NCBI RefSeq assembly: GCF_000565075.1
Contig: NZ_JDFG01000001.1
Span: 1 to 40,482, forward strand
Reading direction: 5' to 3'
Source: Atopobium sp. BS2
Lineage (GTDB): Bacteria; Actinomycetota; Coriobacteriia; Coriobacteriales; Atopobiaceae
Length of the DNA stretch: 40,482 nt
Within the stretch, counting starts at the first letter, position 1, and every line of letters begins with the position of its first letter. The position numbers and the translations under genes were made by a program. The notes beneath the pieces are model-generated. The model had not been told where the DNA came from. It saw nothing but the letters and a program-made list of their open reading frames with translations, and did no database searches. Shown piece after piece: positions 26,916 to 30,959 of this stretch.

Positions 26916-28100
26916 TTAAAGCACAACATCAGGGTCGAGCGATTGCTGACTTTCTCGCATTTCTTTTGCCAAAGACAAATATGCTTTTAACTGCGGCTCT
27001 GTAATCTTGCCCTCGTGCAGAGCATCCTGAACACTACATCCAGGCTCATGCGTATGGGTGCAATCCCTAAACTTACACGTCTGAGCAGCTTCAGAGATAT
27101 GCGGGAATATCTTCTGCAATCCCCTCTCATGACCCACAATAGGCAGACTTCTGAGGCCAGGTTCATCCACAATAACGCCAGCATCAGGAAGCGCTACCAT
27201 GCGACGAGCAACTGTTGTATGACGGCCAGCCTTATCAGATTCGCGGACTTCTCCCGTTTCAAGTGCCTCATGTCCCAAAAGCGCATTCAGAAGCGTTGAT
27301 TTACCAGCCCCTGATTCGCCAAGCACAATGGCCACGGAGCCGTAAGGAACAAGGCTACGAACAGCATCAATTCCCCACGCAGCCCCAAACTTTTGGGCAG
27401 TCTGAGCAAGATCTGCAAGTGCATCGGTTTTCTCGCCCTCAAGCTTTGAAGCTGTTGCAACAATCTTCACCGTAGAGCCAAGAGCTGCGGTGATAGAAGA
27501 AATCTCTTGAGCCAAAAGCTCCGGACCCGCTACATCTGACTTAGTAAGCACCACAGCACAGGCTGCACCGCAGTCTTTAGAGATAACCGCCGAGCGCACA
27601 ATGCGATCAACCGAGACAGCTTCGCCGTCTAAGGCCTGTACCACAAGCACCAGGTCAACGTTTGCGGCCAAGGTCTGCTTTTGGCCACGAGCTCCGCCCT
27701 TCCAGCGAGCAATATCGGTCTCTCGTGGCAGAATGGCCTCGATGATGCCCATATCGTGCGAGTCCGGAATGCGAGCACATACCCAGTCACCAACGGCTAC
27801 CGTGGAGTTCTGGCCCTTGGTCACGCGCGCAGCAAACTCGGCGCGAAACACTCCCTGCTCTGACACAACCGCAGGAAATCCCCTATCCAAGCGGACCACG
27901 CAGGCCATGGTTATCGTCTGGCGAGAAACCCCTTGAGCTTCAAGCTCAGATACGACGTCTGTATAAGCTTGCGTCTGATCCGACGATGGAGTCAGCTGCT
28001 CAAACGCTGGAACGTCCAGCAATGAAGAAAGGGCCGGCAGAGACCCTTGAGTCCTGCCGGCTCCTAGTTTTTTGGAACTTTTTGTACGCTTAGCGGACAA
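26916..28100 (-). CDS. rsgA: Ribosome small-subunit GTPase RsgA
   Basis: RsgA is a circularly permuted GTPase that checks late 30S maturation. The 394-residue protein has an OB-fold N-terminal domain (about 60-125), the permuted G motifs in order G4 TKSD (186-189), G1 GESGAGKST (261-269) and G3 DEPG (312-315), and the C-terminal zinc site with Cys342, Cys347, His and Cys355 in CKFRDCTHTHEPGC. A 40-residue basic N-terminal extension is present. The start is TTG at 28100 with GAGGAG upstream. It is 15 bases behind the cation ATPase gene and shares its leader, an unusual pairing for a ribosome assembly factor. Confidence 0.95.
   Translation of the reverse strand: MSAKRTKSSKKLGAGRTQGSLPALSSLLDVPAFEQLTPSSDQTQAYTDVVSELEAQGVSRQTITMACVVRLDRGFPAVVSEQGVFRAEFAARVTKGQNSTVAVGDWVCARIPDSHDMGIIEAILPRETDIARWKGGARGQKQTLAANVDLVLVVQALDGEAVSVDRIVRSAVISKDCGAACAVVLTKSDVAGPELLAQEISSITAALGSTVKIVATASKLEGEKTDALADLAQTAQKFGAAWGIDAVRSLVPYGSVAIVLGESGAGKSTLLNALLGHEALETGEVRESDKAGRHTTVARRMVALPDAGVIVDEPGLRSLPIVGHERGLQKIFPHISEAAQTCKFRDCTHTHEPGCSVQDALHEGKITEPQLKAYLSLAKEMRESQQSLDPDVVL
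27426..27437 (+). repeat. Short dispersed word GGTTTTCTCGCC, inside rsgA
   Basis: Encodes GEKT between G4 and G1 of RsgA (KLEGEKTDAL). A second copy in the opposite orientation lies 483 bases away in the same gene. Confidence 0.8.
27920..27931 (-). repeat. Short dispersed word (GGCGAGAAACCC), inside rsgA
   Basis: In the gene frame this orientation reads GVSRQT, unrelated to the GEKT reading of the neighbouring copy, so the word is not explained by repeated protein sequence. Confidence 0.8.
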
Positions 28101-28115
28101 GAGTACTCCTCTACC

Positions 28116-30800
28116 TTATGCCTTGTTCTTTTGAACAGAACGCATAACAGCCTTATAAAGCTCCATCAGAGGAATGATAGATGCAGCTAAAAGCATTGCC
28201 ATGGCGTACTCTTCAAAACCAATCTCAGCAAAGCCAAATGCCTGAGAAAGTGGTGTCTCAATTACCACAAAGGTAAGAATCAAAGACATAACAAAGGAAC
28301 CCCACAGCCAAATGTTTTGGCTGGTTAGCTTGAAGATGGAACCACGCAGAGAACGCATGTTGAAGGAGTGGAACATCTCAACCATAGAAAGCGTCAAGAA
28401 TGCCATGGTCATACCCTCAACGCCAGCCTCTGGGTTAGTAATAACCTGTGAGATATCAAAGGTTCCATACTCAAAGTAGTGACCAATAAAATAGCTGGCA
28501 AGAGTGAGAAGAGCAATGATAGAGCCCTGAACAAGGCAGTCAAAGCCAACGCCACCCGCAAAAATTCCGTCCTTAGGATTACGAGGCTTACGCTTCATAA
28601 TGCCTGGTTCAGCCTTCTCGGTAGCCATAGCAAGAGCTGGCAGAGAGTCGGTGATCAGGTTAATCCACAGAAGGTGGGTAGGCTGAAGAATGGTAAAGCC
28701 AACCAGGGATGCAATAAAGACGGAAATAACCTCTGCAAGGTTGGAGCTCAAGAGGAACTGGATGCACTTACGAATGTTGTCGTAGATGCGTCTTCCCTCT
28801 TCGCATGCACTAATGATGGTGGCAAAGTTATCGTCTGCCAAAACCATATCTGCAACGCCCTTAGTGACATCGGTACCAGTAATACCCATACCAATACCAA
28901 TATCGGCGCGTTTAATGGAAGGAGCATCGTTAACGCCGTCACCCGTCATGGCCGTAACCATGCCCTTCTTGCGCCAGGTATCAACAATGCGAACCTTGTG
29001 CTCAGGCTGAACACGTGCGTAAACGCCAATTGTCTCAATGCGCTGCTCAAACTCTTCATCAGAAATCTTATCAAGCTGTGCGCCGGTGATTGCCTGAGAG
29101 CGATCGGTAATAATGCCCAGCTCAACCGCAATAGCAACGGCTGTATTAATGTGGTCACCTGTAATCATAACGGTGCGCATACCAGCTTCATGAGCCTCTG
29201 CAACAGCACCCTTAACCTCAGGACGAACTGGGTCAATCATGCCAGAGAGTCCAACAAAGACCATGTCATGCTCAAGGTTAGCTGGGTCATAGCTCTGAGG
29301 AGCTTCTGTTCCCCAGTCACGACGAGCAGATGCCATAACGCGAAGAGCCTGGTCAGCCATGGACTTGTTCTGAGCCAAAATCTCAGAGCGGGCCTCATCG
29401 GTGAGGTCAATAATGCCATCACTTGTCATAATCTTGGTGCAGCGAGCAAGCACCTCATCAGGCGCACCTTTGGTGTGCTGTACAACTTTGCCAGAGCGAG
29501 TACGCACCACAACAGACATCATCTTACGAACAGAGTCAAAGGGCGCCTCGCCAATGCGAGGACGAGAAGAAGCAAGGTCACTTGTGGTGTATCCAAGTTT
29601 TGCAGCGTCTGCAACAAGAGCAGCTTCGGTTGGCTCACCCTTTGCAACCTGCTCCGCATCGTCCCAGGTAGCGTCACAGCACAGTGCCATGGTACGTACA
29701 TGTGCATCAAGATTTTCTGTCTCATGACGGACAACAGTCATCTTGTTCTGGGTCAGAGTACCGGTCTTATCAGAGCAGATAACCTGAGTACAACCAAGGG
29801 TCTCAACTGCAGTAAGACGACGGACAATAGCGTGGCGCTCGCTCATTCTGGTAACGCCCATAGAAAGAACGATGGTAACAACAGCAACAAGACCCTCTGG
29901 AATTGCAGCTACTGCAAGAGAAACTGCAACCATAAACGTGCTTAGGATAAGGTCAAAGTTGCCAAGCATCTCGGCACCGTGCTTAATAAAACCTGTTGCA
30001 AAAACAAGCAGTGAGATGACAACAACAAGAATGGTAAGTGTATGTGAAAGCTTATCAAGCGCAATCTGAAGTGGAGTCTGTCCCTCTTCTGCCTGAGAAA
30101 TTGCATCTGCAATCTTGCCCATCTCGGTGTCCATGCCTGTTGCAACAACAACTGCACGACCGCGTCCATAGACCACAATAGATCCGGAGTAGCACATATT
30201 CTTTCGGTCACCCAAAGGAATGTCATCGGTGTCTTCAGCAAGACTGAGGGTCTCAGCGTGTTTCTCGACAGGAACTGATTCGCCCGTGAGCGCAGACTCC
30301 TCCACCTTCATGGAGGCGCTCTCAAGAATGCGGCAATCAGCTGGGACAGAGTCACCCGCCTCAAGCAGGATGATATCGCCCACAACAAGCTCAGTTGAGG
30401 CAATCGTCTCAAGGCGGCCGTCCCTGATAACCTTGCTCTGAGCTGCGCTCATCTCTTGCAGAGCAGCAAGGGCTTCCTCGGCTTTGCCCTCCTGGACAAC
30501 ACCAAGAACAGAATTAATAACAACAACAAACAGAATAATTACGACGTCTGCAACTCCGCCTTCTCCGGTATAAATACCTTCAGCAGCAGAAATAGCAGCA
30601 GCAACAAGAAGCATGATGACCATAGGATCAGCCATCTGCGCAAAGAATCTTTTAATAATTGATTCTTTTGGAGCTTCTTTAAGCTTATTGAGGCCATAAG
30701 CCTCAAGACGTGAAGCTGCTTCTACATCAGACAATCCAGCTTCAACATCAGTTTTTTGCGCACTGATAACATCAGACGCACTTGAAAGATACTCTTTCAA
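28116..30800 (-). CDS. P-type (P2A) cation-transporting ATPase, Ca2+-type
   Basis: An 894-residue P-type ATPase of the PMR1/PacL group that exports Ca2+ (possibly Mn2+). Visible are the actuator TGES (about 172-175), the phosphorylation site CSDKTGTLTQ with Asp344, the nucleotide-domain KGAPD and the hinge TGDGVNDAPSIK. Ion-site residues include PEGL in M4 (Glu302), SSNLAEVISVF in M5 and INLITDSLPALA in M6 (Asn and Asp). Ten membrane helices are expected. The start is TTG at 30800 with AGGAGG six bases upstream. The leader of about 125 bases folds into mutually exclusive helices covering that ribosome binding site, so ion- or ligand-dependent translation is likely. rsgA follows in the same operon. 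Confidence 0.92.
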   Translation of the reverse strand: MKEYLSSASDVISAQKTDVEAGLSDVEAASRLEAYGLNKLKEAPKESIIKRFFAQMADPMVIMLLVAAAISAAEGIYTGEGGVADVVIILFVVVINSVLGVVQEGKAEEALAALQEMSAAQSKVIRDGRLETIASTELVVGDIILLEAGDSVPADCRILESASMKVEESALTGESVPVEKHAETLSLAEDTDDIPLGDRKNMCYSGSIVVYGRGRAVVVATGMDTEMGKIADAISQAEEGQTPLQIALDKLSHTLTILVVVISLLVFATGFIKHGAEMLGNFDLILSTFMVAVSLAVAAIPEGLVAVVTIVLSMGVTRMSERHAIVRRLTAVETLGCTQVICSDKTGTLTQNKMTVVRHETENLDAHVRTMALCCDATWDDAEQVAKGEPTEAALVADAAKLGYTTSDLASSRPRIGEAPFDSVRKMMSVVVRTRSGKVVQHTKGAPDEVLARCTKIMTSDGIIDLTDEARSEILAQNKSMADQALRVMASARRDWGTEAPQSYDPANLEHDMVFVGLSGMIDPVRPEVKGAVAEAHEAGMRTVMITGDHINTAVAIAVELGIITDRSQAITGAQLDKISDEEFEQRIETIGVYARVQPEHKVRIVDTWRKKGMVTAMTGDGVNDAPSIKRADIGIGMGITGTDVTKGVADMVLADDNFATIISACEEGRRIYDNIRKCIQFLLSSNLAEVISVFIASLVGFTILQPTHLLWINLITDSLPALAMATEKAEPGIMKRKPRNPKDGIFAGGVGFDCLVQGSIIALLTLASYFIGHYFEYGTFDISQVITNPEAGVEGMTMAFLTLSMVEMFHSFNMRSLRGSIFKLTSQNIWLWGSFVMSLILTFVVIETPLSQAFGFAEIGFEEYAMAMLLAASIIPLMELYKAVMRSVQKNKA

Positions 30801-30804
30801 AGTT

Positions 30805-30890
30805 CCTCCTGGGTTTCTACCTGACAGATTGATGCCCGATCATAATTCCCCAGGAGAGGGGCAAGGGCTCACCAAGGTTGCCGTGTCAGG
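30805..30890 (-). promoter_or_regulatory. Riboswitch-like leader of the cation ATPase operon
   Basis: On the minus strand CCTGACA (30890-30884) pairs with TGTCAGG (30826-30820), enclosing GGCAA/TTGCC (30882-30878 with 30864-30860) or CCCC-TCTCCT-GGGG (30861-30848). TCTCCTGGG (30857-30849) can instead pair over nine positions with CCCAGGAGG (30813-30805), the ribosome binding site itself. TGCCC/GGGCA (30863-30859 with 30837-30833) is a further competitor. These alternatives are the hallmark of a translational switch. The conserved GGGGAGUAG of yybP-ykoY Mn2+ riboswitches is absent, and I recognise no other known class. Confidence 0.55.
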
Positions 30891-30922
30891 ACCTTACAAC
30901 GTCCTATCATAGGACCTTACAA
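30888..30922 (-). repeat. 12-bp direct repeat in the ATPase leader or promoter
   Basis: TTGTAAGGTCCT (minus strand) occurs at 30922-30911 and 30899-30888, a period of 23 bases. The 11 bases between them complete a hairpin GTCCTA-TGA-TAGGAC (30915-30901). The second copy runs into the outer leader helix. It could be a regulator site spanning about two helix turns or part of the RNA switch. Confidence 0.7.
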
Positions 30923-30931
30923 TGCTCTATC

Positions 30932-30959
30932 ATTTTACCGTATTCTTCTTTTTTTCAAA
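30932..30959 (-). promoter_or_regulatory. Candidate promoter of the cation ATPase operon
   Basis: On the minus strand TTTGAA (30959-30954) and TAAAAT (30937-30932) are 16 bases apart. Initiation near 30925 would give a leader of about 125 bases that includes all the helices described. Confidence 0.4.

Follow-up and report, generated by a model that had tools for sequence, protein, structure and literature searches.

Ion-transport genes are typical targets of riboswitches, and few ion riboswitch classes have been validated. To our knowledge, no Ca2+-specific class has been established, and a literature search for the phrase "Ca2+-sensing riboswitch" found no paper, which is weak evidence. The M-box, Mg2+, NiCo, Na+, Li+ and fluoride riboswitches are all 5' leaders of ion-transport genes. 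The closest described system, yybP-ykoY (RF00080), is a metal-responsive 5' leader of exporter genes that in Clostridia controls P-type ATPase genes orthologous to the one considered here. Mn2+ riboswitches have been reported ahead of C. difficile CD2503 and its orthologue in L. lactis (PMC11477304), and S. pneumoniae mgtA is preceded by a Mn/Ca-sensing yybP-ykoY riboswitch (PMC11434433). In the mgtA leader and that of L. lactis yoaB, where yybP-ykoY precedes a Mn2+/Ca2+ ATPase, an RNA switch also governs this type of gene (PMC11434433, PMC11477304), but these leaders belong to another RNA class and to other organisms than the leader described below.

This leader was found in a stretch of 40,482 nucleotides from Atopobium sp. 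BS2 (hereafter, the window), in which it occupies positions 30890-30805 of the minus strand, 5' of a P-type ATPase ORF. In the first-pass annotation, it had been described as an unassigned riboswitch-like leader ahead of a cation ATPase-rsgA operon, a description that is now supported by covariation, conservation and coevolution of the Shine-Dalgarno (SD) and anti-SD segments. Both ORFs were confirmed downstream of the leader, i.e., a type IIA (PMR1/LMCA1-like) Ca2+/Mn2+-type ATPase with a TTG start (28116-30800, minus strand), assigned by an NCBIfam profile and by homology to LMCA1, and rsgA, encoding the ribosome small-subunit GTPase (26916-28100, minus strand; TIGR00157 above cut-off), which is the probable second gene of the operon. 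Among profile models, those of the PMR1/SERCA type lie nearest to the ATPase; the best-scoring family is TIGR01522 (PMR1-type Ca2+ ATPase), although its 622 bits lie below the cut-off of 798, and the closest solved structure is Listeria LMCA1 (E=1.6e-191); Ca2+-pump homology and the ion-site motifs place the protein among the broad type IIA Ca2+/Mn2+ P-type ATPases. An rsgA homologue lies 3' of the ATPase gene in 32 related loci, but none was found among the ATPase loci of Clostridia; rsgA may simply be cotranscribed with the pump gene. The gap between the two genes in Coriobacteriia loci at times reaches some hundred bases.

The clostridial orthologues are 62-63% identical to the pump and have the same M4 PEGL, M5 SNLxEV and M6 NLITD motifs. 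The word GGGAGUAR occurs in 28 of their 41 leaders (about 0.5 expected), many of which also contain GUCAAC and GAGAC elements together with terminator-like hairpins, a combination that we take to be the yybP-ykoY signature. In contrast, GGGAGUAR is present in none of the 128 new leaders, in agreement with the earlier remark that the yybP-ykoY core word GGGGAGUA (with its distal GAGAC element) is missing. RF00080 itself matches the clostridial orthologue leaders only weakly (E=0.0038 for locus L066), and seven of its ten clostridial matches precede P-type ATPases. The clostridial versions have terminator-like hairpins, whereas for the new RNA, with its anti-SD segment, the SD would be the point of control. 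It seems that a single gene lineage is under two unrelated RNAs, and the new candidate offers such a case for study.

A search of Rfam 15, which the first-pass annotation had named as a check, gave no match to the leader at the gathering score and, at E<=10, only chance-level matches to unrelated families; none of the other ion classes listed above was among them. RF00080 matched neither the leader, even at E<=10, nor any site in the genome that contains the window. This silence alone is weak evidence, since RF00080 scores visible yybP-ykoY-like leaders poorly; the model (177 positions) seems to be insensitive in Coriobacteriia and Clostridia, and it missed yybP-ykoY-like mntP leaders in four motif-bearing Coriobacteriia (G027, G129, G084 and G149). 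Such insensitivity, together with the same type of downstream gene, might suggest that the leader is a divergent member of the yybP-ykoY Mn2+ class. However, this is extremely unlikely in view of the missing RF00080 match, the complete absence of GGGAGUAR and an architecture that is not shared, i.e., a consensus consisting of a single hairpin (P1-P2-P3) without the multi-helix junction of yybP-ykoY. The mntP leaders of loci L286, L294 and L302 are yybP-ykoY-like, with terminator-like hairpins, and are undetected by the Rfam 15 model. The notion that motif-bearing families lack yybP-ykoY was rejected because of the visible mntP leaders of the four genomes, and an argument from the presence or absence of MntP was likewise abandoned, since many genomes of the motif families contain MntP. 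Orphan conserved RNAs have also been reported as candidate RNAs of human microbiomes (PMC8040213) and in surveys of 26 and 50 genomes (PMC8632094, PMC11109978); the main texts of these papers do not mention a Coriobacteriia ATPase leader. As far as these texts and Rfam 15 show, the motif is previously undescribed, although it may be listed without a name in the survey supplements.

The leader is a real structured RNA, as evidenced by covariation, conservation and gene linkage. Taken alone, the window sequence folds no better than its shuffles (z = 0.04), and the case therefore depends on comparative data. When 27 distinct leaders were aligned by sequence only (A2), 93.3% of the cells of P1-P2-P3 are paired, and 13 of the 22 pairs exhibit changes on both sides; none of 500 shuffles of A2 matched the real pairing, and sliding the helix partners reduced it to 29-45%. 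RNAalifold, unaided, returned the same fold. In a structure-blind ranking of 2485 column pairs (rigid alignment of 106 leaders, APC-corrected G-test), the first rank was taken by a P2 pair, and P1/P2 pairs also took ranks 3, 5, 8, 15, 17, 21, 22 and 23. Covarying helices in relatives, which the first-pass annotation had proposed as a check, were found for P1 and P2 in both alignments. P2b and P3 vary little, and their support comes mainly from conservation, with P3 additionally showing a U-A replacement.

According to the RNAalifold consensus, the RNA (about 78 nt) forms one extended hairpin composed of P1, an internal loop, P2, an asymmetric loop (UUG-AAUUAUGAUC) and P3. Nearly all Coriobacteriia loci among the fetched ATPase orthologues have this conspicuous common leader, in the order P1, YGGCARCC, UUGRU-GA-GCCC, UUG, CC(C)-loop-(G)GG, AAUUAUGAUC, GGGC-AUCAA, UC and P1'. 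In the window (all on the minus strand), P1 is formed by CCUGACA (30884-30890) and UGUCAGG (30820-30826); this outer helix had been noted earlier, and all ten P1 pairs of A2 show compensatory double changes. The J1/2 internal loop CGGCAACC (30876-30883) follows, for which the main-group consensus is YGGCARCC. Helix P2 (TTGGT/ATCAA plus GCCC/GGGC, 30875-30865 / 30837-30829) was absent from the first-pass annotation. Its P2a 5' strand UUGGU (30871-30875) shows double changes from U-A to C-G and among G-U, A-U and G-C, and contributes the top-ranked column pair, whereas the P2b 5' strand GCCC (30865-30868) is near-invariant, with GGG(C/A) as its partner; between them lies a conserved GA bulge (30869-30870; variants GG, AA and AG). 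The 3' strand of P2, GGGCAUCAA (30829-30837), is likewise supported by covariation. The asymmetric core loop comprises a near-invariant UUG on its 5' side (30862-30864) and the near-invariant AAUUAUGAUC on its 3' side (30838-30847), which is a candidate ligand-binding site; the near-invariant core, GAGCCCUUGCC...GGAAUUAUGAUCGGG, had also escaped earlier notice. The CCCC/GGGG hairpin that had been proposed corresponds to P3 (30861-30858 / 30851-30848), supported by the alignment and by a double change from C-G to U-A in L038; longer variants of P3 exist. A further proposed helix, GGCAA/TTGCC, did not stand: it has no double changes on A2, where GGCRR is present, it reaches an ensemble pairing of about 0.02, and GGCRR is missing in 52 of the 128 leaders, which retain TTGCC.

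One target gene and an irregular hairpin whose asymmetric loop is invariant are features that a protein-binding site might also have; a regulatory protein would then bind the P2-core-P3 stem and govern access to the SD, with no small ligand involved. We consider this unlikely, as so large a conserved core would be unusual at a simple binding site and ion-transport genes are, as a rule, riboswitch targets.

The anti-SD segment that had been recognised in the first-pass annotation was upheld by coevolution. In the window, TCTCCTGGG (30857-30849) is complementary to the SD region CCCAGGAGG (30813-30805, minus strand). The former, i.e., the P3 loop and 3' strand (UCUCCUGGG at the RNA level), is predicted to pair with the SD and shows compensatory C:G replacements, and in most leaders it complements an SD lengthened by CC or CCC. 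Of 32 ATPase genes, 30 have CC in front of AGGAG, vs. 2 of 62 other genes, the latter being neighbouring genes in the same fetched loci. In three lineages (L162, L163 and L229), CUCCC in the loop instead of CUCCU is accompanied by CCGGGAG instead of CCAGGAG at the SD. However, L243 is mismatched, and the anti-SD match is weak in L003, L027, L237 and L244. The minimum free energy folds predicted for 127 leaders have the SD paired to the P3 segment in 99 cases, with a mean pairing probability of 0.80, which suggests that sequestration is the default state in most sequences. When the aptamer helices are forced, the predicted folds lie a median of 4.8 kcal/mol higher, and the SD is free in only 69 of the 127. 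Because the pairing partner of the SD is made up of the loop and 3' strand of P3, the expression platform and the aptamer fold are predicted to be mutually exclusive.

Such default sequestration could also be expected of a thermometer- or ribosome-responsive hairpin, in which the SD/anti-SD pairing alone would matter and the rest would serve as a scaffold. This is very improbable, since helices P1 and P2 show covariation and the near-invariance of the core loop extends across >30 genera, and none of these elements takes part in the SD pairing.

It is instead moderately probable that this structured RNA acts in cis on translation of the P-type ATPase and represents a new candidate class of riboswitch. 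Ligand binding, the polarity of the switch and the ligand itself are matters on which we infer the following. In the unbound state, translation would be off, with the loop and 3' strand of P3 (CUCCUGGG) paired to the extended SD (CCCAGGAG). A ligand would bind the conserved core, i.e., the GA bulge and the UUG/AAUUAUGAUC loop between P2 and P3, and stabilise the P1-P2-P3 fold; P3 would then reform, the SD would be released, and the pump would be made. A translational ON switch of this kind fits the predicted sequestration and has the polarity expected of an exporter. However, the pairing between the loop and the SD might also arise as a pseudoknot of the bound state, and the small share of forced aptamer folds with a free SD (69 of 127) likewise tempers the ON reading.

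Because only one gene family is controlled, the inference of the ligand rests on the function of one gene. Mn2+ is our first guess, a tentative one that falls somewhat short of an even chance, since orthologues of the pump sit behind Mn2+-riboswitch-like leaders. The yybP-ykoY-like mntP leaders in some motif genomes leave room for a ligand other than Mn2+, and Ca2+ would be the next candidate, although a distinctly less likely one. With respect to the earlier suggestion of metal, nucleotide or ribosome-status sensing, the clostridial leaders point to a metal, and no support was obtained for the other two. That the same switch responds to something other than a divalent metal (e.g., a nucleotide, an organic metabolite, Na+/H+ or pH) is doubtful: rsgA looks cotranscribed and, in some motif genomes, mntP already has a yybP-ykoY-like RNA, but the controlled gene is a type IIA Ca2+/Mn2+-type pump with orthologues behind Mn2+-riboswitch-like leaders. 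On balance, a new class of ion riboswitch that is unrelated to yybP-ykoY, is confined to Atopobiaceae and Coriobacteriaceae, senses Mn2+ or Ca2+ and opens the SD of the pump gene is a reasonably likely reading. If this holds and the ligand is Mn2+, the RNA would be a second, independent architecture of Mn2+ riboswitches. The tie to one pump, with orthologues elsewhere under a known Mn2+ riboswitch, makes the ligand directly testable.

The candidate is small, strongly supported and widespread in common gut and oral genera (relatives of Collinsella and Atopobium). A covariance model of the motif (R1) found it in 163 of 398 Coriobacteriia genomes: 101 of the 111 genomes of the window's family (10 were without it), 61 genomes of a second family and one weak match treated as chance. 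From the named loci, which belong to Lancefieldella, Atopobium, Olsenella, Thermophilibacter and Parafannyhessea (Atopobiaceae) and to Collinsella (Coriobacteriaceae), we infer that these are the two motif families. R1 had no matches outside them when 396 genomes were sampled more widely from Actinomycetota and none in 291 clostridial genomes, and an exact pattern search found no viral copies. Weak R1 matches in G046 (E 0.0015) and G219 (E 0.06) are not accompanied by the ATPase and were treated as chance. In all 128 distinct copies examined, the ATPase start lies directly behind the motif. Genus g5 of the window's family (L266-L270) has retained the ATPase and lost the motif, providing a natural comparison case.

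In some Collinsella, two tandem ATPase genes each have their own, more divergent copy of the motif. These paralogues (L181-L185, L259 and L260) have a GAAUUAAGAUCGGGC core, with P2a apparently replaced, and might represent a sub-class. Other loci of Collinsella and relatives (L024, L027 and L165-L179) have a form without P1, with the promoter box 20-23 nt before the GAG core. The box is thus located just 5' of P1 or, in this subgroup, 5' of P2, and the transcript seems to begin there at P2; therefore, P2-core-P3 may be the minimal aptamer, nearer 45 nt.

In most relatives, a conserved GTANNNT box lies 48-49 nt ahead of the GAG core. Its homologue in the window is a probable -10 box, TAAAAT (30932-30937, minus strand), and the window species has about 20 extra nucleotides between this box and P1. 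An alternative -10 box, TATGAT, is found at 30906-30911 (minus strand). The first-pass annotation had stated that a transcription start downstream of 30860 would speak against a riboswitch; judging from the promoter sequences, either box would place the start upstream of P1. The word TTGTAAGGTCCT occurs twice, about 23 nt apart, in window positions 30932-30881 (minus strand), so that the region of the P1 5' strand looks tandemly duplicated, and the first copy can form the perfect hairpin GTCCTATGATAGGAC.
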